64,000 nt of DNA, from NCBI RefSeq assembly GCF_900141935.1, contig NZ_FQYX01000003.1, forward strand, positions 62,001 to 126,000, in the 5' to 3' direction. Shown here piece after piece: positions 17,452 through 39,811 of this stretch. Position 1 is the first letter of the stretch. The number at the start of each line of letters is the position of its first letter. The notes beneath the pieces were generated by a model. The model did not search any database, was not told where the DNA came from, and saw only the letters and a list, made by a program, of their open reading frames with translations. Position numbers and translations under genes: made by a program. The DNA is from Arenibacter nanhaiticus. GTDB taxonomy: Bacteria; Bacteroidota; Bacteroidia; Flavobacteriales; Flavobacteriaceae.

Positions 17452-17514
17452 CCAACTAAAACCCAAAAAATGTATTAAGTAAAACTTATTGAAAAAGATG
17501 TCCTAAGACAAAAA

Positions 17515-17548
17515 AAATCGGAAAATGTTTAGAGCCATTTCCCGATTT
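17515..17548 (+). promoter_or_regulatory. Intercistronic stem-loop between FecR and SusC
   Basis: Inverted repeat with 13-bp arms and one mismatch (17515-17527 and 17536-17548) and an 8-nt loop. There is no T-run. It may attenuate read-through from the anti-sigma gene or stabilise the SusC/SusD message. Confidence 0.5.
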
Positions 17549-17600
17549 AAGTAATGTGAATTAAAAAATCTGTTCAAAATTATTTAATCTAAGCAAAATT

Positions 17601-21149: not shown

Positions 21150-21162
21150 TAGAGATTAAGAC

Positions 21163-22974: not shown

Positions 22975-23014
22975 AGAGACTTTGTATCTTTGATCACTAA
23001 AAGCTAAAATCATT

Positions 23015-23058
23015 GAAAAGGGTTTCTATATTTTATAGATACCCTTTTCTGTTTTTTT
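23015..23058 (+). terminator. Intrinsic terminator after SusD
   Basis: Stem of 15 bp with one mismatch (arms 23015-23029 and 23035-23049), loop of about 5 nt, then seven T residues after one G. It ends the SusC/SusD transcript. Confidence 0.8.
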
Positions 23059-23353
23059 AACATTATTCTTGGTAGGGCACCCCATTTAATTACATGCACA
23101 ACTCTTGCCTTGTAACTTTGGTTATAAAAAAATATAAATAGTAAGATTAGCTATGGATAAGAACAAAAAATAAAACAAAAGTTATTAAAATTATATTTGT
23201 AAGAATTTTAATTAATATTTTAGACCTCTTATAGGTTAAACTACTTCTTTTGCCAAAAATGAACTACATACAGGATGATAAAATTATTCTGTAATGAATA
23301 ATTATCGTTCCATACTAGAATTTCTATACAAAAACTAACAAAGGGGCTTTTTG

Positions 23354-23857
23354 CGCATATCCCATATTTGCTTAGATCCAAATGAATCTACCCGAATTGG
23401 AGAAGAGCTGAAAAAGGGAGGCCTGATAGATTAAAAACAACGAAGGTTTATAGGATGTAACGGACATATATCCTTTATATCACCACCACAACTGGTCATG
23501 ACTCCTGAAGGAAAACATTGGTTTGAAACAATAGAATTATTCTAAGAACCAAGACTTGTGGAGTATTGAATCTAAACTATGCTCTAAATTAAAACTGTTC
23601 ACTTGGGCAAAATAAACGTCCATAGAGTCATAATTCGGGAAGGGTGAGTACATTCAAAACATAATAAACCCCTAGATAATGTTCCCCAGAACTATGGATA
23701 GAAAATAAGCATAAAATGCATTAAGCAGAGGAAAAGGGTAGAGGATGTACTACTAGTTTTTCCAAAAAAGAGGAATTATGTAATGAAGGGCAATAATTAT
23801 CTAATTACCTTATATGATGGTAGGTTTTACAAAATAAAATTTAAACTTCATTTATAA
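23354..23857 (+). pseudogene. Relic reading frame of unknown family
   Basis: One frame stays protein-like over about 500 bp despite several in-frame stops (for example at 23432 and 23543). It contains RISHICLDPNESTRIGEELK, FISPPQLVMTPEGKHWFE, VHLGKINVHRVIIREG and VEDVLLVFPKKRNYVMKGNN. Codon composition looks coding, and the same frame is kept from end to end. I do not recognise the family. The rest of 22975-24143 outside the terminator and the hairpin at 23960 holds nothing I can name. Confidence 0.35.
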
Positions 23858-23959
23858 ATCATCTTTATAATTAAGTATGCCAAGGTAATTTTTTAGTTAT
23901 TTCAAAGGTATAATTCTAGAGGTTAGATAAATTTTCGAAGCGCAGCATTTCCGTCATCC

Positions 23960-24001
23960 GACACTATGCCTTAAAACTTACACAGTTTAAGGCATAGTGT
24001 C
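23960..24001. repeat. Perfect 16-bp inverted repeat
   Basis: Arms 23960-23975 and 23986-24001 are perfect reverse complements around a 10-nt loop. There is no T-run on either side. It sits between the relic frame and the convergent small gene at 24144, where it could act as a bidirectional terminator or be the end of a lost element. Confidence 0.6.
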
Positions 24002-24143
24002 TAAAATAGTCCCCTAAAATAAATTTACAGATTTTTATATTAGTTTCTTTTTCTTCCTTAACCAATTACTTTCAGTAATAGTATCGTACCCTGCCATTGT
24101 ATGGGTGTTTGTTTAAGTCATTTTCAGTTTGATAATTTCTCGA

Positions 24144-24506
<363 letters not shown>

Positions 24507-24841
24507 TTATGCTTTTGTACCCGGAGGTTGGCTAATGGTTAAAGTAGTAAGTGGTGTTTTTAAATATAAATTTGTTTATCTATATAATTATTTTACCTCC
24601 CTGTCTACACTACCTAAGCAGGTAGTCCCATGCATTTCAATTTTTAACCAAGAATAATTTCCTTCTATTTCTCTTTAAATTAGTGTTGAAGGAAAAGAAC
24701 ATTTCTTCATCCATATTTAAAGTGCAGCCTTTTTTCATCTCAGATGTCAATTTCTAAAATTGCCCATCTGTAAAATAATTTCAAGATCTATTATAAAATA
24801 TAACTTACAAATTTAAAATTAATTTTTAGAAAACACTTAAG

Positions 24842-24903
24842 ATAGCATAAAGAAATCCAATGTTTCAAAATATACCATGGCTATATTTCAAGCTTTGATA
24901 AAT
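24842..24903 (+). repeat. Intergenic repeat, copy B
   Basis: Second copy of the element at 14758-14807, same orientation. It has the identical 16-nt opening block and the ATGGCTATA / TTCAA / CTTTGATAAAT blocks, with about 11 additional bases between them. Confidence 0.55.
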
Positions 24904-25129
24904 GTGGCTGATAAGTTTTAGAAAAGGTGAAAATTTAGTGGCTCGTTTCAAAAGACATCATTGAGTTGGGATGAGGGAGTTGGGATGAGGCCTACTTCTT
25001 GGGTAATACAACCCGTAATGATTGATCCAAAACACTTTTGAAGAGGAATTGGTTGTTCTTTTTATTCTTGGTCACTATTTGTTTGCTGGAGGACGGGATC
25101 TAGATTTTAAACCGAATGCCCCATTGAAC

Positions 25130-25390
25130 GATCTTGCGAAATTGAGTTTTTTTAGGCTACCTAAGAGAATGATACTTCGCCCTTCTTAGGTCAGTTTTAT
25201 AGAACTCTTCATATCAGGGAGGCATAGCTTGCCTGGAGCCATTTCCGATTCTTTGATAAAACCAGGGAAGATGGAAAGTTTAGAAACAGGTTTTGAAGCA
25301 AAGCTTTTTAAGAATCATTTGTCGTTTGAGAATGATCAATTTTCCTGACTCATTGGGCTGAGGATAAATGCAGGTAAAATTACGGAATGA
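25130..25390 (+). pseudogene. Relic of a SusC-type TonB-dependent receptor (C-terminal half)
   Basis: In a single frame with stops I read LAKLSFFRLPKR, then SGRHSLPGAISDSLIKPGK, then ESLETGFEAKLFKNHLSFEN, a stop, then RINAGKITE. These reproduce the barrel signatures of SusC proteins: the LxxLKLRxSWG strand, the LKPExxxSxExGxExxFFxNRL strand and the NAGKxxNxGxE strand. Spacing is compressed, so internal deletions have occurred. No plug domain or SusD remains nearby. This is a dead glycan-import gene. Confidence 0.6.
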
Positions 25391-25795
25391 ATTATTTAAT
25401 AGAGATAAGTACATTTCTACTTTTATTAGAAGTCCTAAGATTAAAAAAAAAACTGAAAATCCATATGTGGAAAAATTTCATTTTACACGTATCCATAGTA
25501 CAAGCAGGATTATATTATTCTGTCAAGAATTGTTGTCTCAGGTATATTGTTTATCTGGTATCATCAAAGCATCGTCCTAACAGGGATGTGTTTTTAACCC
25601 TCCTTTGACTGTCCGAAACGTAGCTCAATCGAACATAGATAAACATAAGCTGATAGTCGTGCTTTATATTACCTTGACCATAATATTTCAACACTCTGTT
25701 TTATCGGATTAAAAGTCTGTAATAGAGGTTTTTGAAGAATTTTAGACTCCGTTTTTCATTCCAGTCACTGAGAAACGGGCGTGCCTTTGAATTTG

Positions 25796-26071
25796 TCAGA
25801 GATCAGTAATAAAGGTATCTCTGCCCTTTATTCCAATATAAATATCGCATAGGGTAATACAATAGTTCAGCTGTCCCAATGTTAGGATCACGAATTGTTC
25901 GTAGCTTTTACATTTGCTGCTCCCGTTCTTACCATGGCACTCATCGGTACAATGTTTGGGCATCCAGCTATGGAATAAATTTAATGTTTTGCGGATTAAA
26001 ACCTTGTTTGTACTTTTAATGCTTCTGAAGAGTTCGAAAAAAATATTTTTTGTCGGTAAAAACAAAAACAT
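25796..26071 (-). pseudogene. IS4-type transposase N-terminal relic
   Basis: The minus-strand frame contains FHSWMPKHCTDECHGKNG, then KCKSYEQFVILTLGQLNY, then CDIYIGI. This follows the N-terminal pattern of IS4-family transposases (FxxCVxxYxGDxxVKxFxCWxQFLxMxFxQLxxxxSLRDI). The DDE catalytic part is not readable downstream, so this is a fragment. It suggests past insertion activity in this decayed stretch. Confidence 0.45.
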
Positions 26072-26084
26072 GGGATTTCCAGAC

Positions 26085-26123
26085 TTCTTTATTTACAACT
26101 ATTGGCTAATTGTAAATAAAGAA
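26085..26123. promoter_or_regulatory. Perfect 14-bp inverted repeat upstream of the GH123 gene
   Basis: Arms 26085-26098 and 26110-26123 are perfect reverse complements around an 11-nt loop. They lie 53 bp before the GH123-type start codon. The position fits an operator or a leader hairpin; no T-run supports a terminator on the plus strand. Confidence 0.5.
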
Positions 26124-26175
26124 TTGAAAAAAAAATAAAAGCACATATATAAAAAGTAAATAAATAAAGATTAAA

Positions 26176-27948
26176 ATGAATAAATTAATTTTAGGGCTAT
26201 TATTAGTAATTGTTTTTAATGTCAGCTGTGAACAGAAAAACAAGATTGTAATTGCTCAAACTTTTGAAGAACCTATAGATCCATCACCTAATAAAGATGA
26301 AAATTGGGAAGGGGTTCCAAAAGGATTGCAAGCTACAGTAACATCCACAAACATTCGTTTTGTAAAAAGTGTCATTCCTAAATTGGAAAAACAAACAACT
26401 TGGACAGGTAATGCTTGGAAAGGGGAGCGTATTTCAAGTCAATTAGTCCTATGGAGTAATGATTCTATTAATCATGTAAGCACTGAAATTTCTGATTTTA
26501 AATCAAATTCCGGGCACCTCTTGCCTTCCAGTATTGCTAAAGCGCGATTTGTAAAATATGTGATTACAGATGAATTTGCTGAAGGTTGTGGGTACAGAAA
26601 ACCAGAAGATTTTTCATCGTCCTTAGCTGCCGATGCTTTAGATGAGGTAAGTTCATATGCTGTAAAAGCACAAGAAACCAGACCAATTTGGATAACTATA
26701 GATGTTCCAAGTGATGCCGTATCAGGAACTTATAAAAGTACTGTTACCCTAGATATTAAAGGGCAGGATTCAAAAACTTTTGAATTTACTTTGAATGTAA
26801 TAGATAAGGTTCTTCCAGAAGGAACAGATTGGAAATTTCATTTGGACCTATGGCAAAATCCTTTTGCCGTGGCCCGATTCCATAAAGTAGAAGTATGGTC
26901 TGTAGAACATTGGGAGTTGTTAAGGCCAATTATGAAACGATTGGCAGATGCTGGACAGAAGGTAATTACCGTGTCGTTAAATAAACGGCCTTGGGGCGGA
27001 CAAACTTTTGACCAATTTGAAACTATGGTCAAATGGAAAAAGAAGATAGATGGCACATGGGAATATGATTTTGACATTTTTGACAAGTGGGTTCAGTTTA
27101 TGATGGATTTGGGCGTTAAAAAACAAATAAGTTGTTATTCGATGGTTCCTTGGGGGAATGAGTTTTATTATTTTGATGAAAAAGAAAATAAAGAAATTAA
27201 AATTAAAGCAGCTCCTGGAACCAAAGAATATGAAGCCTTGTGGATTCCATTTTTAACAGAATTTAAAAAGCACTTGACAAAAAAAGGCTGGAATAATATT
27301 ACCAGAATTGCGATGGATGAAAGAGGGCCCGAAGAAATGAAAGCCATGCTGGACTTACTTAACCAATATGCTCCAGAATTTGGGGTATCGTTTGCAGACA
27401 ATCATAAGAGTTATAAATTGTACCCTGATGTTTTAAAAGATATGTCGGTAGCTTTTGGACATCCTGTAGATCAGGAAGATTTGGAAAAAAGAAGAGCTAA
27501 TGAATATATAAGTACTCATTATGTGTGTTGTTCAGATGGGTTTCCGAATACTTTTACTTTCTCACCTCCGGCAGAAGGTGTGTTTATTGGTTGGTACACT
27601 ATTGCTGCAGATTTTGATGGATTTTTGCGTTGGGCTTACAATAGTTGGGTAGAAAACCCCTTGCAAGATTCACGGTTTAGCGCTTGGCCCGCCGGAGACA
27701 CCTATTTGGTTTATCCGGACAATAGAACTTCAATTCGATTTGAAACTTTGCGTGATGGTATTGAAGATGCTGAAAAGATCAGAATATTGAGGGAGGATTT
27801 AAAAAGCAAAAATATGCTTGAAGATCTCGATTATTTAAATAAAGTAGTAGCACAATTTAATATTACTGCAAAACCAGAAGGCGGAGTTGAAGCTATGATT
27901 GAAAATGGTAAAAACGTATTAAATATTCTAGCAAAAAAAATAGAATAG
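26176..27948 (+). CDS. GH123-type (DUF4091) glycosidase lipoprotein
   Basis: 590 residues with a lipobox (NVSC, C18). An N-terminal beta-sandwich (about 55-215, ending FEFTLNVIDKVLP) is followed by a TIM barrel and a C-terminal part with FLRWAYNSWVENP and a DTYLVYP...RFETLRDGIEDAEKIRIL stretch, the DUF4091/GH123 hallmark. IAMDERGPEE supplies an Asp-Glu pair (D381, E382) in the place of the substrate-assisted catalytic pair of GH123. Characterised GH123 enzymes are beta-N-acetylgalactosaminidases; many DUF4091 proteins are not characterised, so the substrate is open. It stands alone, with hairpins on both sides. Confidence 0.83.
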   Translation: MNKLILGLLLVIVFNVSCEQKNKIVIAQTFEEPIDPSPNKDENWEGVPKGLQATVTSTNIRFVKSVIPKLEKQTTWTGNAWKGERISSQLVLWSNDSINHVSTEISDFKSNSGHLLPSSIAKARFVKYVITDEFAEGCGYRKPEDFSSSLAADALDEVSSYAVKAQETRPIWITIDVPSDAVSGTYKSTVTLDIKGQDSKTFEFTLNVIDKVLPEGTDWKFHLDLWQNPFAVARFHKVEVWSVEHWELLRPIMKRLADAGQKVITVSLNKRPWGGQTFDQFETMVKWKKKIDGTWEYDFDIFDKWVQFMMDLGVKKQISCYSMVPWGNEFYYFDEKENKEIKIKAAPGTKEYEALWIPFLTEFKKHLTKKGWNNITRIAMDERGPEEMKAMLDLLNQYAPEFGVSFADNHKSYKLYPDVLKDMSVAFGHPVDQEDLEKRRANEYISTHYVCCSDGFPNTFTFSPPAEGVFIGWYTIAADFDGFLRWAYNSWVENPLQDSRFSAWPAGDTYLVYPDNRTSIRFETLRDGIEDAEKIRILREDLKSKNMLEDLDYLNKVVAQFNITAKPEGGVEAMIENGKNVLNILAKKIE

Positions 27949-28417: not shown

Positions 28418-29866
28418 ATGTTATTTCGTCTCCTTTTTCTTTTCGTTTTTGTGGTTGTGTCATGTTCCTCTGCTGAGGGACCTGATATTATTTTTGAAGA
28501 TTTTGAAAGTGGAAACTTCGAAAACTGGAATAAATTAGGTGTAGCATTTAATTCACCAACTAGACAAGACTCGATTTCCGAATCAATTGAAAATGTACAA
28601 GGTAATTTATTTGCATATTCGAATTTTGAAGGATCAGGAGAAAGTTTAGGGCAGGGAAAATTAGTTTCAGGCAACTTTATAATAGACCGAAAATATATCC
28701 GCTTTTTGGTTGCAGGAGGTAAACACAAAACTAGAGAATGTATAAATCTTATCATTAATAATAAAATTGTTAGGACTGCAACAGGAAAAAATGATCATAC
28801 TTTAAGGGAAATTACTTGGGATGTTAGTGATTTACAGGGTAAGATTGCAATGATAGAAATTGTGGATGCATTGGCATCCAGTTACGAACAGAATTCATTA
28901 GGTCATATAATTGTTGATAATATTGTATTCAGCGATTTTAAGAATTCCCAAGAAGTAATATTTGAGAATTTTGAAAGTGGTAACTACAATAATTGGAAGG
29001 TGGAGGGTGATGCATTCGAAGTACCCCGGAATAGGATCAACGTTTATTATCCTATTTCAGTAAATGGATTTAATGGAGAGTATTTTGCCTTTTCTTTCGG
29101 CGAGACACATGATTCTAAACAGGGAAAACTCACTTCAAAAACTTTTGAGATAACCCATGATGGGATAAAGTTTTTGATCGGTGGAGGAGGTCATGAAAAT
29201 AAAACCTGTATTAATTTAATAGTTAATGATTCGGTTGTTTTTTCTCAAGTTGGTCAAAATGACGGTGAGATGCGATCGCATCAATGGGATGTAACACCTT
29301 TTAAAGGCCAAATGGCTAAGATTGAAATTGTAGACCACTATTCTAAGGGATGGGGACATATTATGGTGGACGAAATAGTTTTTTACAACAAGCCTGTGCG
29401 AAGTAATATATGGTTTTATTTGGGATCAGTACTTTTTGTACTTATAATTTCCTACGTCCTATTTAAAACTGTCACTTCTAGAAAACAATTGAAGCACATA
29501 GTGGAGGTAAGTGATGAAGAGAAGGAAAAATATGAGAAATTAAAGGCTTCAATTGAAACATCTAAAATATTTAAAGAACAGAACCCGAGTATAAATGATA
29601 TTGTTAAAATATCGGGTATAGAGGAGAATGAGATCAATTATTTATTCGAAACGGCGGGAAATACCTCGTTAACAAACTACATTAATTATTTAAGAGTCGA
29701 AGAGTTTAAAAGGCAATTAAAAGATCCACAAAATGAAGCCTTTACAATGATGTATATTGCAGAAAATAGTGGTTTTAGTTCTAAAACTTCTTTTTATAGG
29801 ATATTTAAATCAATAACCAAATGTACCCCTTCGGAATATAAAAAGAGCTTTGGTCGGAATCATTGA
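28418..29866 (+). CDS. Membrane-spanning AraC-family regulator with duplicated DUF4980-like sensor
   Basis: 482 residues. The N terminus is an export signal with a lipobox-like VVSC (C16). Two homologous beta-domains follow, about 24-173 and 180-324. Each opens with IxFExFESGN(F/Y)xNW and runs through GxLxSxxFxI, FLxxGGxHxxxxCINLIxN, WDVxxxxGxxAxIEIVD and GHIxVDxIVF. This is the domain at the N terminus of many GH32 levanases (DUF4980-like). A single membrane helix (about 331-350) leads to a cytoplasmic linker and a C-terminal AraC-type pair of helix-turn-helix motifs (about 390-480, YIAENSGFSSKTSFYRIFK). I infer a one-component sensor that binds sugar outside and DNA inside. The DUF1080 gene cluster 575 bp downstream is a likely target. 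Confidence 0.85.
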   Translation: MLFRLLFLFVFVVVSCSSAEGPDIIFEDFESGNFENWNKLGVAFNSPTRQDSISESIENVQGNLFAYSNFEGSGESLGQGKLVSGNFIIDRKYIRFLVAGGKHKTRECINLIINNKIVRTATGKNDHTLREITWDVSDLQGKIAMIEIVDALASSYEQNSLGHIIVDNIVFSDFKNSQEVIFENFESGNYNNWKVEGDAFEVPRNRINVYYPISVNGFNGEYFAFSFGETHDSKQGKLTSKTFEITHDGIKFLIGGGGHENKTCINLIVNDSVVFSQVGQNDGEMRSHQWDVTPFKGQMAKIEIVDHYSKGWGHIMVDEIVFYNKPVRSNIWFYLGSVLFVLIISYVLFKTVTSRKQLKHIVEVSDEEKEKYEKLKASIETSKIFKEQNPSINDIVKISGIEENEINYLFETAGNTSLTNYINYLRVEEFKRQLKDPQNEAFTMMYIAENSGFSSKTSFYRIFKSITKCTPSEYKKSFGRNH

Positions 29867-30440
29867 CTTATAAATGTTTGAAGAGAGTATTCCATTGTTT
29901 GATTATATCTAATGTTTCCTTGGGGGAATACCGGTGGAGGAAATAAGGATATAGAAAAAGTTCCTAATAACTCGTAGTAAGGGACTTATTTCCTTCATTT
30001 ATTGGTAGGCCTATTTTTTTATGATTCCAATTATTATATACTTATAATCTTTATTTTATATTACTCACGTTATTCTTGGAAATAAAGATGATGACAATGA
30101 AAATACGACAGATTATTTTCTTCTAATCAAACTTATAAATAATGTATACTTAATAATATCAGAGGTATTAGCTTGTAAATTTTGCAAGGAAACCACAACC
30201 TTGTAGATATTCTAACCTTTTCTTCTTTGAATAAAATTATATCAGCTACAATTAGCATAGTTGATGTAATTTTTTCATTTAAACCCAATTGATTCATTTT
30301 TTTTCGTTCCTCTTGAATGTAACCGTAAATAGGGGCTTGGGACGTCCCAGTACCTGTTCTGGGACATAAAATGCTATAAAAATCAGCTTATTTTTCAACC
30401 CTAAATCTAATTTAGTTGCATAATATTTGATAGCAAAAAA
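29867..30440. other. Intergenic region between regulator and DUF1080 cluster
   Basis: 574 bp without a supported gene. It has a long-loop inverted repeat near 29940-29998 (AGGAAATAAG / CTTATTTCCT) and the GGGAC element described separately. It probably holds the promoter of the downstream gene cluster. Confidence 0.5.
30339..30365. promoter_or_regulatory. GGGAC palindrome and inverted repeat, candidate operator
   Basis: A perfect 10-bp palindrome GGGACGTCCC (30339-30348) overlaps a perfect 7-bp inverted repeat, GTCCCAG (30344-30350) and CTGGGAC (30359-30365). It is GC-rich in an AT-rich spacer, 75-100 bp before the DUF1080 start. It is a plausible binding site for the adjacent regulator. Confidence 0.45.
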
Positions 30441-31181
30441 ATGCCGTACATGGAAATAAATTTAGAGGTAAGCAAAACAAGAAAATTAGTTCGGAGGATT
30501 AAAACCTGGATAGACCAATTTTTTACAATTAAAAAAAACCTTTTGGGTAAAAAGTGCCTGGTACTGATTCTTTCTATTATGGGAAATCTAAGCTGTAAAG
30601 CTCAGCCTAGCACGTTTACAGGCTCTCTTTTTGACAGCAAAACCTTAAAGGGTTGGGAAGTAGTAAATAAAGAAAACAAAAAATATTGGTCCGTGGTGGA
30701 TAGTGTTATAACCGGTGGCGATGGCATCACCAATATACCAACTAACACATATTTACGTACTAGTGATAGTTATGAGGACTTCGAATTCCGAGCTCTTTTT
30801 CGCTTAACCGGTGATCATGATACTGGCTTAATCAACAGTGGTATCCAATACCGTTCTATTATTGATGGGAACAAAATTATTGGGTATCAGGCGGATATTG
30901 GAAGAGGTTATTGGGGGGATATCTACGATGAGCACCGGCGCGCTAAACTTATAGGAGGAGATCTTAGTACGTTACGATACCTCCTGAAAGAAGATGGATG
31001 GAACAGTTATATTATCCGGTGTAAAGGAAACAAACATGAACTGTATATCAACGGGGTGAAGACCACTGAGTATATGGAAAAGGACCCTGGAATTCCATCA
31101 AAGGGAGTTATTGGTATTCAATTGCATAGTGGTGGAAATGCGAAAATTGAATTTAGGAATATAACGATTACTAGGCTTTAG
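30441..31181 (+). CDS. DUF1080 (3-keto-disaccharide hydrolase fold) lipoprotein
   Basis: 246 residues as drawn. The first 35 residues are hydrophilic and precede a normal lipoprotein signal (VLILSIMGNLSC), so a TTG near 30543 may be the real start. The mature part is one DUF1080 domain: SLFDSKTLKGWEVVN, TYLRTSDSYEDFEFRALFRL, NSGIQYRS and GVIGIQLHSGG. DUF1080 is a concanavalin-like jelly roll; some members hydrolyse 3-keto-glycosides. It opens the cluster, 33 bp before the PVC-type gene. Confidence 0.88.
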   Translation: MPYMEINLEVSKTRKLVRRIKTWIDQFFTIKKNLLGKKCLVLILSIMGNLSCKAQPSTFTGSLFDSKTLKGWEVVNKENKKYWSVVDSVITGGDGITNIPTNTYLRTSDSYEDFEFRALFRLTGDHDTGLINSGIQYRSIIDGNKIIGYQADIGRGYWGDIYDEHRRAKLIGGDLSTLRYLLKEDGWNSYIIRCKGNKHELYINGVKTTEYMEKDPGIPSKGVIGIQLHSGGNAKIEFRNITITRL

Positions 31182-31214: not shown

Positions 31215-34200
31215 ATGAAAATCAATAGATTATCCCTTCTATACTGCTTGATCATGGTCTTGGCTTTTCAAGGATGTAAAGAAAAGTCATCAATGTCCGG
31301 ATCCGGGGATGTTACAGGAAACGAAAAAATCGATTATAACCGAAAGACACAGTCCTCAAGGACAGAAATATATTCTCCAGAAATGGAATTGGCCGGGTTT
31401 CAAGTCCCTGAGGGTTTCGTAGTGGAATTGGTGGCTAGTGAAAGAGATGGTGTGGTGAACCCTATCCATTTAGCTTTTGACGATGCTGGTAGGTTGTGGA
31501 CGCAGACGGCCGAAATGTATCCTTTAGATCCGGTTTCTGATATAGCATGGCAAGACCTATTAAAGCTTATGGATAACCCAGAGGCACAAGAAAAAGATCC
31601 CAAATTTAAAAGGATTTTGGACTTGTACCGAGGCAAGACCCAAGGAAAGGATAAAATACTAGTGCTTTCTGGTCTTTATGGCAAAGAAAAGGTAACTGCC
31701 AATATATGGGCAGATGGACTTGCTATACCCCAGAGTATATTGCCCTATAAAAATGGAAGTTATGTAGCTCAAGGTTCCGAACTTTTTTTCCTGGAGGATA
31801 CAAATAATGATGGAAAGGCAGACAAACGTACACCTTTGTTCACCGGATTTGGAATTACCGATACTCATACCATGGCCCATGTATTGGTTCGCGGTCCTGG
31901 GGATTGGATCCATTTTAGCCAAGGTGCTTTGAACAAGGGAGAGGTGAGTTCCCTGATAAGTGATGCCAAAATTCGCTTGGATTATAGTAAAATAGCAAGA
32001 TTCTCCTTGGATTCGAAAAAGATAGAATTGGTCAGCTCGGGTTTAAACAATATTTGGGGCTTTAAGCTTAGAGGAAATGGACAGTGGTATGGCATGGAGG
32101 CCAATGATCTTGGTTATTCCGTGGTCCCCATGGAAATTGGAACAGGTTTTCCCGGTATAGGAAGCGAACGCCTACGTCCTTACCAACCGTGGATGCCGGA
32201 ATTGCATAGTTTTCGCGTAGGGGGAACTGGGATTTCAGGAGTTGCTTTTTCGGACGATCTGGAAGGGAGCTTCCCAGAAGAATGGAAGGATGTGGCCTTT
32301 ATAGCAAACCCTATTACCAGTGCTATAAACGCAGTTAAGATTGCACGCAACAAGGATGGCACCGTTTCGGCAGAACATCTGCCAGATTTTTTAACTTCAA
32401 AAGATGATTGGTTTAGGCCTGTCAACATGGAGTTTGGCCCGGATGGATGCTTATATATTGCTGATTGGTACAATAAAATAGTATCCCATAATGAAGTAGC
32501 AACCACACATCCTGATCGTGACAAATCACACGGACGTATTTGGAGGATTCGTCATAAATCGCAAAAACCACGGGATATTCCTGATTTTAATGAGCTAAGG
32601 ACAGATGAACTAGTTCAATATCTTAAATCTCCATCAATTTGGGCGAAACGTGCCGCTTGGCATCAGATAAGTGACCGACCTATTGTAGAAACTCGGGAAC
32701 TAGCCACAGATCTATTACTTTTAGTTTCTGATATTCAACAAAATGAAATTACACGTATAATGGCGCTTTGGTCCCTTGAAGGAATAAAGCATTACGATGA
32801 AAAGGTTATGATATCCCTTTTGGATACCGAATCCGATAACCTAAGAAGGGAGGTTGTCCGTTCCCTTCAATCCTTTTCCTTAAGTGCCGATAACTTGGCC
32901 CATTTATTGAAAATTCCCTCCAAGGATGAAAATCCTATGGTTAGGTCTCAGGTCTTAAGAACCTTGGATGCGGTGGGAACCGCAAATATGGAAACCATAG
33001 CTCTATTAGTTGGGGCCTGTAACCCACCACTTGATGGGAATGCTATGGGAGGGGCGTACGAACGTAATTTTGAAAGATATCTTGCCCGAAAGGCCCTAGA
33101 GAATTATCCGAACGAACTGTTAGACTTTGTAAAATCATCAAAAGCATCCCAATATGCTACTTCGAATTTAATCTGGGCAAGTCAGGCACTACCAAAAGCG
33201 GAACGGGAAGCAGTCTTTGTGGATTTATGGAAGCAAAGTGATGATAAGAACCTAGATGAGGCCACATTTATAGTTGTGGCGGGAATGTTGGAGAATAGGG
33301 ATGTATTAAATGTTGTCCTGCCAGTTTTGGAAAACATTGATAAAGCGGAAAAACATGTTACGCTCACTTTGAAAAACTTAGCTAAGGTACAATCCAACGA
33401 ACTGACAAATGCACTAATAAAGCCTATTAGGTTTTTGTTAAAAAGCCGAGAAATATCCCATCAACATCTAGGATTGGAGGCTATTGGAAAATTAAATGTC
33501 AGTTCACTAAGAAACATGGTTATCCCTTTTGTAGATAAAACTTCTTCTTCCGAAACTATAAAACTGGCGATGCTAGCACTAATTAACCAACCCGAAGAAA
33601 ATAAAGCGGTGTTTGAACGGATAGCAAAAATGGAATTTTTAGAATTGGATTTGAGGGCTACAGCAATCCAGGCACTTGCCAAGACGAATATATCAACTGC
33701 CAATAAAACCTTAAGTGAATTAATACCAAAAATGGGGCAATCTCAAAAACAATCCGTAACCGGAATATTATCCAATTCCGAAGAAGGAGGTACACTTTTG
33801 AAACAGCTTTTCGATACAGGAATTTTGACTTCTCAAGAATTTGGCTTGTCTAGTGCGGAAAAGATATTTCAGTCCAATAAAGAAGATACAAGGGGAATAG
33901 AACTTTTCGCGCAGGTGAAGAACAGGATCCAGAATGAGAAGAAAGCCTTTGAATCCAAATTGCATCGATTTATGGTCATAGCAGAGAAGAAAGGCGGTAA
34001 CCCAGAAAACGGTGAAAAACTCTTCCAGACTTGCTTTATGTGTCATAGAGTGGGAGATAAGGGATTTGATTTTGCTCCGGCCTTGGATGGCTCTGCTTTG
34101 CGGGAAAATGAGGCGTTGTTGACTGCGATATTAGACCCTGATGCCGCTTTAGAAAGTAGTTATGCAATTTACCGGGTTACTAAAAAAGATGGTAGCACCT

Positions 34201-34400
34201 TGGAGGGATATCTTGTAAAAAAGGATGAAAGGGGCACTACCATAGGATTTATGGGAGGGAGTAGCAGGTTTATTCAAGCTTCGGAAATAAGTTTTGAAGG
34301 TTTTTTAGGAGGTCGTTCATTTATGCCAAAGGGCCTAATAGACAATTACTCGGACGAACAGGTGTCAGATCTACTGGCATTCATCAAGACATTAAAGTAG
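31215..34400 (+). CDS. PVC-type propeller / HEAT-repeat / cytochrome c lipoprotein
   Basis: 1061 residues with a lipobox (FQGC, C21). Residues about 60-430 form a glucose/sorbosone-dehydrogenase-like propeller (TIGR02604 type: GFVVELVASERDGVVNPIHLAFD, GPDGCLYIADWYNKIVSHNE). Residues about 440-900 are HEAT repeats. The C-terminal domain carries one covalent-haem site, CFMCH (C940, C943, H944), and the TIGR02603-type ending LDPDAALESSYAIYRV. The family is abundant in Planctomycetes and Verrucomicrobia and also in flavobacteria; it is thought to be a periplasmic sugar oxidoreductase passing electrons to haem. Beside DUF1080 it suggests sugar oxidation to the 3-keto form. Confidence 0.87.
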   Translation: MKINRLSLLYCLIMVLAFQGCKEKSSMSGSGDVTGNEKIDYNRKTQSSRTEIYSPEMELAGFQVPEGFVVELVASERDGVVNPIHLAFDDAGRLWTQTAEMYPLDPVSDIAWQDLLKLMDNPEAQEKDPKFKRILDLYRGKTQGKDKILVLSGLYGKEKVTANIWADGLAIPQSILPYKNGSYVAQGSELFFLEDTNNDGKADKRTPLFTGFGITDTHTMAHVLVRGPGDWIHFSQGALNKGEVSSLISDAKIRLDYSKIARFSLDSKKIELVSSGLNNIWGFKLRGNGQWYGMEANDLGYSVVPMEIGTGFPGIGSERLRPYQPWMPELHSFRVGGTGISGVAFSDDLEGSFPEEWKDVAFIANPITSAINAVKIARNKDGTVSAEHLPDFLTSKDDWFRPVNMEFGPDGCLYIADWYNKIVSHNEVATTHPDRDKSHGRIWRIRHKSQKPRDIPDFNELRTDELVQYLKSPSIWAKRAAWHQISDRPIVETRELATDLLLLVSDIQQNEITRIMALWSLEGIKHYDEKVMISLLDTESDNLRREVVRSLQSFSLSADNLAHLLKIPSKDENPMVRSQVLRTLDAVGTANMETIALLVGACNPPLDGNAMGGAYERNFERYLARKALENYPNELLDFVKSSKASQYATSNLIWASQALPKAEREAVFVDLWKQSDDKNLDEATFIVVAGMLENRDVLNVVLPVLENIDKAEKHVTLTLKNLAKVQSNELTNALIKPIRFLLKSREISHQHLGLEAIGKLNVSSLRNMVIPFVDKTSSSETIKLAMLALINQPEENKAVFERIAKMEFLELDLRATAIQALAKTNISTANKTLSELIPKMGQSQKQSVTGILSNSEEGGTLLKQLFDTGILTSQEFGLSSAEKIFQSNKEDTRGIELFAQVKNRIQNEKKAFESKLHRFMVIAEKKGGNPENGEKLFQTCFMCHRVGDKGFDFAPALDGSALRENEALLTAILDPDAALESSYAIYRVTKKDGSTLEGYLVKKDERGTTIGFMGGSSRFIQASEISFEGFLGGRSFMPKGLIDNYSDEQVSDLLAFIKTLK

Positions 34401-34412
34401 TTTAGAAACTAA

Positions 34413-35669
34413 ATGGTACTCTTAAAAAACACCTTATCAATTTTGCCATATTTATTGATGTTTCTGCTGTCTACTCTATGGGGCCAGGCACAAAAAATAC
34501 CATCTACTTCGGTGTTTTTTGAGAAAACACAATTGTTAGACAAGTATGTTTCCGAAGGGGCCTCGATCGCAGATGTGAATTCTGATGGCATTTTGGATAT
34601 TATTTCAGGTTCTATATGGTGGAAAGGCCCTGGTTTTGAACAAGTCTACGTCTATGCGCCAGTAGAATATTTTCCGATTACCGGTCCGGGGCTAGAGGGG
34701 TATTCCACTAATTTTTTTACGTTCCCTTCCCATATAGATGGGAACCGTTGGATAGATATCCTTCAAGTAGGGGTTCCAGGTTCGGATAGTAAATGGATCA
34801 AAGATCCTGCAATAATATCGCTACCTCTTACTGCCGATATGGTAGTGGAGCCAACTTATTTAAACGCCCTGAGGAATGTTTGCCATGAATCTCCTGTCTT
34901 AATGGATATAATTGGAGATACGAAGAAAGAACTATTGGCTTTCAGCCAAGGAAGATTAGTCTTAGGTATGTCTCCTAAAAATAACGGGGAAGATTGGCAA
35001 GCCCTACCTATTTCCGTCAAGGATCCTACACGTTTTCCTGTGTATTCCCACGGATTGGGGGCGGGAGATATCAATGGGGACGGACTAGTCGATATTATTG
35101 AGAAAAGTGGATGGTGGCAGCAACCTGATTTTTGGAATCTCAGCGATACTTGGGTCTATCATGCATATCCATTTTCCCCTGGGACAGGTGGGGCCCAAAT
35201 GTACGCCTTCGATATTGATGGCGATGGGGATAATGACGTGATTACGTCCATGGACGGACATGGCTATGGACTTTCCTGGTATGAACAAATAGGAAGTAAA
35301 GAGAATATCAATTTTAAAGAACATATTGTTATGACCGATAGGCCAGAAGATAATACTTATGGGGTGTCCTTTAGTCAGTTGCATGCAATGGAAGTGGCAG
35401 ATATTGATAATGACGGGATATTGGATATTATAACCGGTAAATGCTATTATGCCCATAATGGGCGTGATCCAGGTGCCGAAGATCCAGCGGTTCTGTATTG
35501 GTTTAAAACCTTAAGACATAGAAATGGTTTGGTAGAATTTGTTCCTTATCTGATCGATAACGATTCTGGGGTGGGGAGACAGTTTTCAACGGGAGATCTT
35601 AATGGGGACGGTAAAATCGATATTGTGACCGCAAACAAAAAAGGGGTCTTTGTCTTTATGCAGAAATAG
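34413..35669 (+). CDS. Secreted VCBS/FG-GAP repeat protein
   Basis: 418 residues with a signal peptide (about 1-26, ending WGQAQ). Five or more FG-GAP/VCBS calcium-binding motifs are spread along it: DVNSDGILDI, DINGDGLVDI, DIDGDGDNDV, DIDNDGILDI and DLNGDGKIDI. This makes a single propeller without an ASPIC domain. It starts 12 bp after the PVC-type gene, so it is translated from the same message. A role as a binding or docking partner of that protein is inferred. Confidence 0.85.
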   Translation: MVLLKNTLSILPYLLMFLLSTLWGQAQKIPSTSVFFEKTQLLDKYVSEGASIADVNSDGILDIISGSIWWKGPGFEQVYVYAPVEYFPITGPGLEGYSTNFFTFPSHIDGNRWIDILQVGVPGSDSKWIKDPAIISLPLTADMVVEPTYLNALRNVCHESPVLMDIIGDTKKELLAFSQGRLVLGMSPKNNGEDWQALPISVKDPTRFPVYSHGLGAGDINGDGLVDIIEKSGWWQQPDFWNLSDTWVYHAYPFSPGTGGAQMYAFDIDGDGDNDVITSMDGHGYGLSWYEQIGSKENINFKEHIVMTDRPEDNTYGVSFSQLHAMEVADIDNDGILDIITGKCYYAHNGRDPGAEDPAVLYWFKTLRHRNGLVEFVPYLIDNDSGVGRQFSTGDLNGDGKIDIVTANKKGVFVFMQK

Positions 35670-35714: not shown

Positions 35715-36011
35715 ATGACTAGACACTTTGGAATGTTTCAGTTTAAGGAAGGAGTGAGCAACGAAGAAATTGAAAATTGTTTTGAAACAATGAAAGCCAT
35801 GGTAGGGAAAATACCGGGGTTGTTAGACATGGAATATGGCCCTTATGATAGTACGGAAGGATTTAATGATGGCTTTACCCATGGTTTTATCATGACCTTC
35901 GATAGTCCAGAATCTAGGGAAGAATATCTGCCCCATCCCATTCACGAAAAGGTGAAAGACATAGTAATTCCACAATTGGAGCGGGTAGTGGTTTTTGACT
36001 TTAATGTATAA
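35715..36011 (+). CDS. Dabb-domain (stress-responsive alpha/beta barrel) protein
   Basis: 98 residues forming one Dabb domain: RHFGMFQFKEGVSNEEIENCFE, then FTHGFIMTFDSPESREEYLPHPIHEKV. These dimeric cytoplasmic proteins resemble ferredoxin-fold monooxygenases and cyclases. Several work in small-molecule degradation. It lies 14 bp upstream of the Tm-1-like gene and is probably co-transcribed. The reaction is unknown. Confidence 0.85.
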   Translation: MTRHFGMFQFKEGVSNEEIENCFETMKAMVGKIPGLLDMEYGPYDSTEGFNDGFTHGFIMTFDSPESREEYLPHPIHEKVKDIVIPQLERVVVFDFNV

Positions 36012-36025
36012 CCTAAAAAAAGGTT

Positions 36026-37246
36026 ATGAGCATGAAGGATAAAAGCATAGTAATGCTTGGTTGTTTTGATACTAAGGGAGAGGATTTTACCTACCTCTAT
36101 CAATGTTTAGATATTCAGAATCAGCCTTTAATTACTATAAACACTGGGGTTATGGATACTTCCGTTAAGTTTCCCATTGATGTGGATAACGAATCTGTGG
36201 CGGCTGCTTCTGGTACAAGCTTAAAGAACATTAGAAAATCTGGTGATCGAGGAAAGGCGGTAGAGCTTATGGGAATGGGCGCCTCGGAGATCCTTTCGGA
36301 CCTTGTTTCCAAAGACCTGATCAAGGGTGTTATTGGAATGGGGGGAGGTGGCGGCACCTATATCATATTGGAAGCCATGCAGGCAGTACCCTTGGGCATA
36401 CCCAAGCTATGTCTTTCTACGGTAGTAGCCAAAGACCTTTCTAGACAGATCGGGGTGAAGGATATCACAATGATGTCTTCTGTGGTAGATGTTGCCGGCA
36501 TCAATAAGATCAGTCGGTTGTTGATACAGCAGGCATCAGCAGCCATAACTGCAATGGCACTCGTGAAAGTGGATACTTCGGTGACAGTTAAAAAAAATAT
36601 AGCAATTAGTATGTTCGGGAATACTACCAAATGTGTGGACAAATGTACCGAACTATTAAAAGACCGGGGGTATGAGGTCATGGCCTTCCATGCCACTGGT
36701 GTTGGTGGGGCTACTATGGAATCGCTTATACGTGAAGGTGTTTTTGATGCCGTATTGGACGTTACCACCACTGAATTGGCTGATGAACTTTGTGGAGGTA
36801 TTTTAAGTGCCGGCCCAGACAGGTTGACAGCGGCTTCGGAAATGGGGATTCCCCAAATAGTGGTGCCTGGCTGTTTGGATATGGTGAATTTTGCCCAATT
36901 GGATACTATACCCCAGAAATATAAATCAAGAGAGCTTTATAGTTGGGCACCTGATGTAACTCTAATGCGTACCGATAATATTGAAAACAAGATCCTGGGC
37001 AAACAGCTTGTCAATAAATTAAAGAAGGCCAAAGCTCCTGTGGAAATCTTGATTCCCTTGAAAGGAATTTCCCAAATTGACAGTGAAGGAGATATTTTTT
37101 ATAACCCAGAAGCGAATAATGCACTTTTTGAATCCATAAAGGAAAATGCGAAGGGCCATATTGAAGTAGTCCAAATGAACGCTCATATCAATGATGAAGT
37201 CTTTGCTAAGATGTTAGTGGAGCACTTGTTGAAAATGATGAAATAA
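36026..37246 (+). CDS. Tm-1-like ATP-binding protein (UPF0261)
   Basis: 406 residues, cytoplasmic. It shows the UPF0261 pattern: VMLGCFDTKGEDF at the N terminus, a glycine-rich IGMGGGGGTY loop (near 110), SMFGNTTKCVDKCTELL, FHATGVGGATMESLI and a VVPGCLDMVNF stretch. In tomato Tm-1, which inhibits tobamovirus replication, the same ATP-binding domain is fused to a TIM-barrel domain. Here the two halves are separate neighbouring genes. The bacterial function is unknown. The start at 36026 has a second ATG two codons later. Confidence 0.9.
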   Translation: MSMKDKSIVMLGCFDTKGEDFTYLYQCLDIQNQPLITINTGVMDTSVKFPIDVDNESVAAASGTSLKNIRKSGDRGKAVELMGMGASEILSDLVSKDLIKGVIGMGGGGGTYIILEAMQAVPLGIPKLCLSTVVAKDLSRQIGVKDITMMSSVVDVAGINKISRLLIQQASAAITAMALVKVDTSVTVKKNIAISMFGNTTKCVDKCTELLKDRGYEVMAFHATGVGGATMESLIREGVFDAVLDVTTTELADELCGGILSAGPDRLTAASEMGIPQIVVPGCLDMVNFAQLDTIPQKYKSRELYSWAPDVTLMRTDNIENKILGKQLVNKLKKAKAPVEILIPLKGISQIDSEGDIFYNPEANNALFESIKENAKGHIEVVQMNAHINDEVFAKMLVEHLLKMMK

Positions 37247-37274: not shown

Positions 37275-38132
37275 ATGCCAAATAAATGGACAGGAAAGGG
37301 TAACCCTTATACCCGTGAAGAAGTTAGACAACGATTACAAAAAACCTTGGATCAGAAAAAAGCAATCATAGGTGCAGGAGCAGGTACGGGAATAAGTGCC
37401 AAATTCATAGAAAAGGGTGGGGCCGATTTTTTAATAATATATAACTCTGGACGCTTTAGGATGTCTGGTCACGGATCAACGGCCGGATTAATGGCTTATG
37501 GCGATGCCAATGCCGTAGCCATGGAAATAGGGGAGTTTGAAGTACTGCCGGTAGTAGAGGAAATTCCAGTATTCTGCGGCGTTCACGGATCGGACCCCCG
37601 AAGGAGGATGTGGCATTTTTTACAACAGGTAAAGGCCATGGGGTTCTCTGGGGTTAACAACTTTCCAACTCATTCCATTGTAGATGGTAGCTTTCGGGAT
37701 ATCCTAGAGGAGACCGGGATGGGCTTTTCCAAAGAAGTTGAAATGGTACGTTTGGCTTCGGAAATGGATTTATACTCTTGTGTGTACGTAGCCACTCCTG
37801 AAGAGGCTATTCAAATGGCAGAAGTAGGGGCAGATGCAATTATAGCTCATGTAGGAACAACGGTAGGAGGATCTGTAGGTGTAGTGGGGGCAACTGTGGA
37901 TATGGACTTTGCTATTAAAAGAACCCAAGAGATCATAGAAGCGGGGCGGAAGATCAATAAGGATATAATTTTTTTAGCACATGGAGGCCCCATTAATACA
38001 CCAGATGACGTTAAAGTTATTTTAGAAAATACGGATGCCCATGGATTTGTTGGGGCTTCTTCATTGGAGCGAATGGCGGTAGAAGCCTCACTGACTGCTT
38101 TGACACAGAAATTTAAATCATTGGAACTTTAA
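37275..38132 (+). CDS. PEP-hydrolase-family TIM-barrel protein (Tm-1 C-domain type)
   Basis: 285 residues, cytoplasmic, matching the PEP hydrolase-like TIM barrel (PF09370): KKAIIGAGAGTGISAKFIEKG, LIIYNSGRFRMSGHGSTAGL, GVHGSDPRRRMW, GVNNFPTHSIVDGSFR, AIIAHVGTTVGGSVGVVGA and FLAHGGPINTPDD. It corresponds to the C-terminal half of plant Tm-1 proteins and follows the Tm-1-like gene by 28 bp. Pairing of the two halves in one operon argues that they act as a complex or in successive steps. The reaction is inferred from family naming only. Confidence 0.88.
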   Translation: MPNKWTGKGNPYTREEVRQRLQKTLDQKKAIIGAGAGTGISAKFIEKGGADFLIIYNSGRFRMSGHGSTAGLMAYGDANAVAMEIGEFEVLPVVEEIPVFCGVHGSDPRRRMWHFLQQVKAMGFSGVNNFPTHSIVDGSFRDILEETGMGFSKEVEMVRLASEMDLYSCVYVATPEEAIQMAEVGADAIIAHVGTTVGGSVGVVGATVDMDFAIKRTQEIIEAGRKINKDIIFLAHGGPINTPDDVKVILENTDAHGFVGASSLERMAVEASLTALTQKFKSLEL

Positions 38133-38194: not shown

Positions 38195-39811
38195 ATGGAA
38201 AGATTTCCACTAGAAGATACTTCTAAGAAAAGAGCCCTTTTTATAGGTTGTTTTATAGCATTATTGACCACTGCCTTCGGTTTTATCACTAGAGTGTTTC
38301 TAGTTGATACTTGGAGCGTGGCTTTCGATCTAAATCCTGCACAGGCGGGGAGGCTTATGGGAATCGGTATCTGGCCTTTTTTTGTTGCCATCATATTCTT
38401 TAGCCTGTTCATTGATAAGATTGGCTATAAAATGGCAATGATCTTTGCTTTTATAGGTCATATGACCTGGGGGGTAATGGGCTATTTTGCTTATCATTTT
38501 TTACAGTCTGGAGATATTGATACGGCCTACAGCCTTTTGTATTGGGGAAGTTTGGTATTTGCTTTAGGTAATGGTACAGTAGAAGCCTTTATAAATCCGG
38601 TTGTAGCCACTATGTTCAATAAGGACAAGACCAAATGGTTGAATATATTGCATGCCGCCTGGCCAGGTGGATTGGTACTTGCCGGAATTATTGTGATAGG
38701 TATGGGCAATGTGGAATGGTGGATCAAGATCGTTATCACCGTAGTTCCGGCCACAATGTATTTTTTAATATTATTGAGACAGGATTTCCCTGCTAATGAA
38801 CGCGTTGCGGCGGGGGTAAGTTATAGGGAGATGCTACAGGAATTTGGTATTGGCGGGGCTTCCTTGGTTGCTTTTCTAGTGGTATTACAATTGAATGATT
38901 TTTTTATGCCGGGCCCTGAAGATTATTTGATGCGATATGGGTTTATTGCTATTGGTGTGTTTATGGTGATTGCTTTTGGTTGGTATGTCCGGACTTTGGG
39001 TCGTCCCATATTATTGTTCCTATGTTTTATTATAATGCCACTGGCCACTACCGAGCTGGGTACGGATTCCTGGATACAATCTATAATGCACGGAATTGCC
39101 AGTAGCAAGGGCTTTGATGCGGGATGGGTATTGATTTACACATCATTAATCATGCTGGTGCTCCGGCTTTTCGCTGGCCCAATATTACATAAAGTATCCC
39201 CATTGGCCCTATTGGTCATTAGTTGTGTGCTCGCCATATTTGGATTATATTTCCTTTCCTTCACCACTGGGTGGTTCATTTTTGCAGCTGCAACACTCTA
39301 CGGTCTTGGCAAGACATTTTTCTGGCCCACTACTATAGGTATTGTGGCCGAGCAGACTCCTAAGGGAGGAGCGCTAACTCTGAACGCAGTTAGCGGAATT
39401 GGAATGCTTACCGTAGGAATGTTGGGAGCGCCCATTATTGGAGCTTTCCAATCCAATTCACAGATCGAACAATTGCAGTCCTCCCATGAACTGACACAGC
39501 TTGCTCCCTCAAAGTTGGTAAAGGACGGGAAAGTAAAACTCCCTTTACAGGATGAGACCATTTATTCCATAATCGATTATCAGACAGTGGACATGGAAGA
39601 GTTCAATGGAGATTTGGCTAGTATGGAAAATCCTCATGAGGTAAATGCGCTGATCTCAGACCTTAAAACTAAGGGAACTCAATTGGCCTTGGCTAAGGTG
39701 ATCATTTTTCCCATTATTATGCTCGTGTGTTACATAATCTTAATTTTTTATTTCAGAACTAAAGGAGGATACAAGCCAATAATTTTAAAAGCTTCTAGAG
39801 TGGATTTATAG
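38195..39811 (+). CDS. MFS transporter
   Basis: 538 residues with about twelve membrane helices. The N-terminal bundle begins ALFIGCFIALLTTAFGFITR and the last helix is VIIFPIIMLVCYIILIFYF. Residues about 415-500 form a long polar loop before the final helix, which is unusual for this superfamily. It ends the cluster and is likely the inner-membrane uptake step for the product of the envelope enzymes upstream. The family is secure, the substrate is not. Confidence 0.88.
   Translation: MERFPLEDTSKKRALFIGCFIALLTTAFGFITRVFLVDTWSVAFDLNPAQAGRLMGIGIWPFFVAIIFFSLFIDKIGYKMAMIFAFIGHMTWGVMGYFAYHFLQSGDIDTAYSLLYWGSLVFALGNGTVEAFINPVVATMFNKDKTKWLNILHAAWPGGLVLAGIIVIGMGNVEWWIKIVITVVPATMYFLILLRQDFPANERVAAGVSYREMLQEFGIGGASLVAFLVVLQLNDFFMPGPEDYLMRYGFIAIGVFMVIAFGWYVRTLGRPILLFLCFIIMPLATTELGTDSWIQSIMHGIASSKGFDAGWVLIYTSLIMLVLRLFAGPILHKVSPLALLVISCVLAIFGLYFLSFTTGWFIFAAATLYGLGKTFFWPTTIGIVAEQTPKGGALTLNAVSGIGMLTVGMLGAPIIGAFQSNSQIEQLQSSHELTQLAPSKLVKDGKVKLPLQDETIYSIIDYQTVDMEEFNGDLASMENPHEVNALISDLKTKGTQLALAKVIIFPIIMLVCYIILIFYFRTKGGYKPIILKASRVDL

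Follow-up and report, generated by a model that had tools for sequence, protein, structure and literature searches.

We identified in the window (the whole stretch of 64,000 nucleotides analysed) a gene for a transmembrane AraC-type regulator whose outer part consists of two tandem domains with a predicted CBM-like beta-sandwich fold. The protein is probably a one-component, sugar-sensing membrane regulator that controls the adjacent 3-keto-disaccharide hydrolase module through a conserved operator.

Domain organization and topology of the regulator

The reading frame at 28418-29866 (+) is open throughout, and since its 482-amino-acid product is conserved at full length in seven further genomes (45-73% identity), it represents a true gene. 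We assigned the following features to it.

28418..29866, + strand: transmembrane AraC-type regulator (P0001), 482 aa; open reading frame with full-length orthologues in 7 other genomes
28418..28480, + strand: export signal with Cys16 (VVSC; possible lipobox); Cys in 8/8 rows, flanks variable
28481..28939, + strand: outer domain copy 1, residues 22-174; homologous to copy 2, WGH motif without its W
28949..29398, + strand: outer domain copy 2, residues 178-327; predicted CBM-like beta-sandwich (model mabf4a96bda62), GGGxH and WGH(I/V) kept in 8/8
29402..29479, + strand: single transmembrane helix, residues ~329-354; hydropathy in 8/8 rows, model helix 330-358
29606..29845, + strand: AraC DNA-binding domain, HTH_18, residues 397-476; Pfam E 3.6e-13

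Pfam analysis of the whole protein matched HTH_18 (PF12833) with 50.1 bits (cut-off 33.6 bits) and HTH_AraC (PF00165, residues 447-474) with 26.7 bits (cut-off 26.6), revealing the C-terminal double helix-turn-helix of the AraC family; these were the only Pfam hits, and no kinase or receiver domain was found in the 482 residues. Hydropathy revealed one hydrophobic segment behind the ectodomain in all eight aligned orthologue rows, with an excess of Lys/Arg on its C-terminal side in seven and equal numbers in one (L021), which places the AraC domain in the cytoplasm. The export signal, single membrane helix and cytoplasmic C-terminal AraC domain of the original prediction were thus borne out, giving the layout of a kinase-less membrane AraC regulator, with a topology read solely from hydropathy and charge; the protein would be seated in the inner membrane. 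A lipobox follows the consensus [LVI]-x-[GAS]-C after a hydrophobic stretch. The lipobox-like cysteine that had been proposed does close the N-terminal hydrophobic stretch in 8/8 rows, whereas the residues ahead of it vary (VVSC, FISC, FTSC, LVGC, LVSC, FSSC, FYSC), with F at position -3 in 5/8, so that lipidation at Cys16 is possible. The full-length structural model was of moderate quality (pLDDT 73, pTM 0.50).

We surveyed the distribution of the regulator in 397 genomes of the family and 395 of the phylum, one per species, scoring up to four candidates per genome. Arenibacter sp. 6A1 has a full-length orthologue (73% identity; the genes flanking the regulator are 90-98% identical), as do two Algoriphagus species (~50%) and four more genomes of the same family (65, 58, 56 and 46%). 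Matches at 1e-30 were obtained in 6/397 family genomes, the source genome included, and at 1e-15 in 8/395 genomes of the phylum sample, where only the source genome carries the gene at full length. The regulator is therefore real but sparsely distributed. A genome of the same genus (G373, loci L022/L042) holds a remnant in which the frame is broken by an in-frame stop and the later part was not found; its module and a near-perfect operator remain.

Identity of the outer domain

The two outer repeats are 42% identical to each other and are, judged by their sequences, homologues. They had been described as two copies of a DUF4980-like domain; the duplication held, the family assignment did not. 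Pfam searches did not return DUF4980 (PF16352) for the whole protein (E<=1), for the isolated ectodomain (E<=10; top hit, from any family, E 0.065) or for 19 members of the domain family (E<=1; top hit, from any family, E 0.024, with each weakly matching family confined to a single member). PF16352 had no match anywhere in the source genome, and the same search found it in 4/247 genomes of the class. Alignment of the outer domain with four DUF4980 domains by hhalign gave a probability of 0.4%, and we rejected the assignment: DUF4980 is a different sequence, located at the N-terminus of GH32 proteins. Searches against NCBIfam (E at least 0.019) and PDB sequences (best E 0.14) returned nothing significant, and we took the weak matches of the ectodomain and of single members (Pfam E at least 0.024, NCBIfam E at least 0.019, PDB E at least 0.14) as chance.

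The label does contain a correct element. A tblastn search with the ectodomain hit seven places on plasmids, three of them annotated as GH32 (best Catenovulum, E 6e-27) and one more recognizable as GH32 by eye. As read from these sequences, the domain is inserted within the GH32 catalytic part, with the Glyco_hydro_32N match split in two and the domain between; the link to GH32 is therefore real, and it runs through an unannotated homologue of the outer domain that is distinct from DUF4980. By eye, the GH32 proteins of a Streptomyces plasmid (L025) and an Actinomyces oris plasmid (L024) seem to carry one copy inserted in a loop of another, after GGGNH or similar, the outer copy sitting inside the GH32 catalytic part.

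Fold and occurrence of the outer domain

The AF2 model of copy 2, built from 23 rows, reached a pLDDT of 91.4 and a pTM of 0.88. VIA-align, whose result is limited to the fold families in its list, gave its highest score to a porphyran-binding CBM (8xmz; Z 13.2 at 2.6 A over 127 residues), followed by 5x7o (12.2) and then by a tied group of CBM16/CBM61 (11.5-11.8), reelin (11.7), meprin (11.4) and Cry/Vip C-terminal domains (~11.3). For copy 2, Foldseek ranked a gingipain adhesin domain first (E 3.3e-6), with CBM35 next at 1.8e-5; for the full-length model its top match was a CBM22 tandem. By its model, the outer domain is therefore a CBM-like jelly roll, a beta-sandwich of the CBM type, and this fold favours sugar binding; it does not prove it, because reelin, meprin/MAM and gingipain adhesin domains score similarly.

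The two copies differ in conservation. Copy 2 retains GGGxH and WGH(I/V) in 8/8 orthologues, while copy 1 lacks the tryptophan of WGH in 8/8 and the H in 7/8, and mean pairwise identity is 0.55 for copy 1 vs 0.63 for copy 2. Both observations argue against two equal ligand sites, making it doubtful that the copies bind ligand equally; of the suggestion that the duplicates bind ligand as a pair, the duplication stands and the equivalence of the sites was weakened.

A census with the domain profile (A3; 395 Bacteroidota genomes, up to ten candidates scored per genome) gave matches in 27 genomes at 1e-5. It yielded 29 proteins besides the regulator, most of them cut ~1.5 kb from the match, and among the 27 scanned by Pfam the partner domains were DUF7133 (8), PSCyt1/PSCyt2/PSD1 (8), RCC1 repeats (6) and GH32 (2), with PKD, Big_2 with a Por sorting domain, and an M19 peptidase once each. 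In Myxococcales-type genomes the domain terminates long proteins, and the one scanned had no Pfam hit. No helix-turn-helix family occurred among the 27, so that a second AraC fusion was not found in this sample. The eight DUF7133 fusions, L048 and L053 among them, involve the family of the 1061-aa protein in the module adjoining the regulator, and L048 shows a plastocyanin-type Copper-bind match ahead of the domain. These data define an unannotated CBM-like domain that is present in enzymes of several phyla and in one regulator type.

The scores of the adhesin-like folds raise the reading that the regulator acts on the module but that its ectodomain senses a protein, such as DUF7133, the 3-keto-hydrolase, the FG-GAP protein or their state. 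The fusions to DUF7133 and PSCyt/PSD1 fit this reading, in that the domain may bind partners of that system, as does the loss of the motif tryptophan from copy 1. We nevertheless consider protein sensing unlikely: the best VIA match is a porphyran-binding CBM, with CBM16 and CBM61 among the next, and GH32 enzymes from several phyla carry the domain as an insert.

The neighbouring gene module

Directly behind the regulator lies a run of seven genes on the same strand, which we regard as its probable target.

30441..31181, + strand: 3-keto-disaccharide hydrolase family (PF06439), first gene of the module; E 4.8e-33
31215..34400, + strand: DUF7133 + HEAT + cytochrome c protein, 1061 aa, gene 2; Pfam
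34413..35669, + strand: FG-GAP repeat protein, gene 3; Pfam
35715..36011, + strand: Dabb (stress-responsive A/B barrel), 98 aa, gene 4; E 1.5e-24
36026..37246, + strand: UPF0261 (N and C), gene 5; Pfam
37275..38132, + strand: PEP_hydrolase-like protein, gene 6; Pfam
38195..39811, + strand: MFS transporter, gene 7; Pfam

The module adjoins the regulator in 7/9 loci: the window, L009, L010, L011, L038, L040 and L042 (regulator broken). The remaining two (L039, L041) are cut off by the contig end behind the regulator; their genomes lie outside the 8/397 family genomes with a DUF7133 orthologue at 1e-250 (up to two candidates scored per genome). The 3-keto-disaccharide hydrolase and DUF7133/HEAT/cytochrome c genes are present in 7/7 module loci (the first gene of L040 read in L075). 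In the five loci outside Algoriphagus, the Dabb, UPF0261 and PEP_hydrolase genes occur in 5/5, FG-GAP in four (not L042) and the MFS gene in three (L009 ends earlier); for L009-L011 the comparison covered the regions around the loci. Among PF06439 proteins are, according to the part of PMC9007349 available, BT2157, a 3-ketotrehalose hydrolase, and an enzyme for which 3'-ketolactose hydrolase activity is proposed. The module putatively degrades oxidised sugar compounds, and the regulator probably controls it; the fusion of the outer domain to DUF7133 in 8/27 other Bacteroidota proteins also counts for this link.

Upstream, positions 16312-27948 of the window hold a FecR-type gene, then SusC-like and SusD-like genes (by eye) and later a GH123 gene; 22975-26175, between the SusD-like gene and GH123, is without an open reading frame of 150 aa. 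We rejected SusC/SusD, FecR and GH123 as partners, none having a close relative adjoining the regulator in the other eight loci. Distant relatives lie within some kb in L038 (a SusC/SusD pair, 22-27% identical) and L040 (SusC 29%, FecR 32%, a sigma-factor-like gene 29%), and a GH123 gene 73% identical lies ~15 kb off in L039. In Algoriphagus aquimarinus (L010:854-5125), a contractile injection system tape-measure gene (CIS_TMP) is located two genes ahead of the regulator.

A conserved site between regulator and module, proposed as an operator

Comparison of the intergenic regions revealed a shared site, TTGGGACGTCCCAG-N9-TGGGAC (30337-30365), between regulator and module.

30337..30350, no strand assigned: proposed operator, palindrome TTGGGACGTCCCAG, 104 bp ahead of the first module gene; sequence conservation
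30360..30365, + strand: third half-site TGGGAC, 22 bp after the first (direct repeat); 21-22 bp in 7/7 loci

The motif was first noticed by eye in five intergenic sequences; G328, G373 and G162 were found later. Its exact core, TGGGAYRTCCCA, occurs once in the 4.36 Mb source genome, and the reversed control zero times. With at most one mismatch to this core, the operator is present in 7/7 loci with regulator and module: L009 has one mismatch in the core and one in the third half-site, L038 one in the third half-site, and L042, the locus of the broken regulator, one in the core. The module is inverted in G328 (L075), and the operator travels with the module promoter. In a shuffle test, the best 12-mer shared by six loci had a mismatch sum of 5, and none of 200 shuffles fell below 7 (mean 9.9); when the nearest relative was left out, the sum was 4 and the lowest shuffled value 5 (mean 7.8; L010 and L011 are near-duplicates, and L010 alone entered the test). 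Allowing one mismatch gave 38 forward matches in the source genome vs 21-27 for the reversed control; this looser pattern is thus not specific, and the strict core alone is.

The operator also tracks the regulator across genomes. Modules without a regulator orthologue (G050, G272, G135) had best matches of 4-5 mismatches, the chance level, in 3/3 testable cases, G298 falling outside this comparison through a contig cut. In G135 the module is adjoined instead by a gene for a 299-aa AraC protein that shows no evident export signal (L118:1199-2095) and may have replaced the regulator. Of ten genomes scanned, six contain the exact core (G203, G328, G162, G373, G298, G135), and G212, G169, G050 and G272 lack it. 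In G203 and G328 it lies at the module; the 12-mers of G373 and G298 fall inside open frames and, like the G135 copy, have no third half-site. G169 carries a 45%-identical regulator without the exact core and without a module orthologue, which either speaks against the operator reading or signals a changed motif. The broken regulator of G373 beside its near-perfect operator would be explained by recent loss, and another factor binding the site would explain it too. A bipartite pattern with gaps of 6-9, run over 149 family genomes, gave one match, inside a coding frame of G110, a genome without a full-length regulator orthologue; these gaps missed the window itself, the gap being 10 in the window and in G162. 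A PWM hit upstream of the UPF0261 gene in L009 was rejected as a second operator, lying inside the conserved Dabb coding gene.

The G162 genome carries the regulator and is outside the 8/397 genomes with a module orthologue at 1e-250. Here the full operator lies 118 bp ahead of the first of two GH116 genes, behind which comes a GH43/GH32-superfamily gene, the latter matching GH43 at 1.8e-13 and Glyco_hydro_32N at 2.3e-7, over its cut-off. Together with the homology of the outer domain to the domain inserted in GH32 enzymes, this third gene is what speaks for a fructan (levan) sensor. That reading, which follows from the levanase assignment originally made, is very improbable: the outer domain is not DUF4980, its partners are PSCyt/PSD1 (8), DUF7133 (8) and RCC1 (6) vs GH32 (2) of 27, and no GH32 gene was seen beside the regulator in nine loci (17 neighbours scanned by Pfam, the rest compared with the open reading frames of the window), where the conserved neighbours are those of the 3-keto/DUF7133 module.

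The palindrome of the site, with its central CG, has a LacI-like look, and this palindromic half is not typical of AraC proteins. The operator might thus serve another factor, for instance a LacI-type repressor, with the transmembrane protein regulating something else. In Algoriphagus (L010), a LacI gene does follow the regulator at a distance of ~5.5 kb, the operator persists in G373, and G169 has the regulator without the exact core. We judge this assignment quite improbable. No LacI gene was found among the nine window neighbours scanned by Pfam; the site is missing from the three testable modules without a regulator orthologue and present in G162, which has the regulator and no module; and the third half-site keeps the 21-22 bp direct-repeat spacing of HTCS/AraC motifs. 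Predicted HTCS motifs of Bacteroides are described, in the portion of PMC3878776 at hand, as direct repeats that lie 21 bp apart on average, read as dimers on one DNA face. In our aligned loci, TGGGAC recurs (0-1 mismatch) at 21-22 bp, a spacing that fits a DNA-bound AraC dimer. From this conservation, we infer that the regulator binds the direct repeat at 30338-30365.

Proposed mechanism

In the mechanism that we favour, a one-component AraC-family regulator would expose two tandem CBM-like beta-sandwiches to the periplasm, joined by one inner-membrane helix to the AraC domain in the cytoplasm. The ligand would be of the sugar type; a glycoside or 3-keto-glycoside from the neighbouring pathway is probable, with copy 2 as its more likely binding site. 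Its binding may alter the arrangement of the ectodomains within a dimer, so setting both AraC domains to occupy TGGGAC-N16-TGGGAC at 30338-30365 and presumably turning on, rather than repressing, the 3-keto-disaccharide-hydrolase/DUF7133/UPF0261/PEP-hydrolase/MFS module directly downstream. Dimerisation of the regulator driven by the ligand, as originally envisaged, is possible. Because the operator of G162 precedes GH116 genes, the ligand might, as a weak suggestion, be linked to the beta-glycosides on which GH116-type enzymes act or to products that the two gene sets share.

The idea of an enzyme accessory domain recruited as the sensor of a membrane AraC protein without a phosphorelay survives in altered form: Pfam finds no kinase or receiver, and the domain is not DUF4980. 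We tentatively extend it, with less confidence than the local mechanism, to an unnamed sugar-binding domain common to the enzymes of one oxidative, 3-keto glycoside pathway (DUF7133 relatives, PSCyt/PSD1, GH32) and to its membrane regulator, which would recognize the same ligand in both; the external CBM-like dimer would then drive the AraC dimer onto the operator, a palindrome with a direct repeat, without phosphorelay. The arrangement offers a testable chain from sensor to operator, with one protein, one operator and one module. The ligand, if found, would point to the substrate of the uncharacterised DUF7133/UPF0261/PEP-hydrolase set and could yield a simple, single-gene transmembrane biosensor.

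Comparison with known systems

A membrane-crossing AraC protein without a kinase had been presented as novel, and this claim failed. Two kinase-less Reg_prop-Y_Y_Y-AraC proteins were found: L101 (976 aa), a protein in which Pfam found no kinase or receiver and which the source genome encodes outside the window (contig 52, ~34 kb upstream of the regulator), and L098 (925 aa), on a Bacteroides finegoldii plasmid, annotated as 'two-component regulator propeller domain-containing protein'. Both resemble the regulator in having an outer sensor, a hydrophobic segment (by eye), a C-terminal HTH_18 and no kinase or receiver by Pfam, and differ in that the sensor is a beta-propeller with Y_Y_Y instead of two CBM-like domains. 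A limited literature search (membrane-bound AraC; GH32 inserts, DUF4980) did not find the present architecture among the titles and abstract openings covered.

The HTCS of Bacteroides share a periplasmic carbohydrate sensor, AraC output and direct repeats ~21 bp apart, as far as the available text of PMC3878776 describes them; unlike the 482-aa regulator, in which Pfam found neither, they carry kinase and response-regulator parts in the same chain. The SusR-like proteins (SusR; SusR4/BT2160) are likewise one-component membrane regulators that sense sugar in the periplasm and bind DNA in the cytoplasm (sections of PMC9007349, PMC3878776 and PMC11501099). In contrast to the AraC-type domain identified here by Pfam, the DNA-binding domain of SusR is described in PMC3878776, within the text available, as without significant similarity to other known factors, with predicted sites 67 or 77 bp apart. 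The RsgI anti-sigma factors of Clostridium thermocellum, in the part of PMC12203970 seen, are substrate-sensing membrane regulators with a transmembrane helix; unlike the regulator described here, they signal via anti-sigma factor proteolysis and not by direct DNA binding.

By analogy, the BT2156-BT2160 cluster is a functional parallel with another type of regulator: its BT2157 is named a 3-ketotrehalose hydrolase (excerpt of PMC9007349), and BT2160, which belongs to the cluster (excerpt of PMC11501099), is a SusR-like regulator (excerpt of PMC3878776). Since kinase-less Reg_prop-Y_Y_Y-AraC proteins exist, the chassis of a kinase-less membrane AraC regulator is already known, and the CBM-like sensor is new on it.
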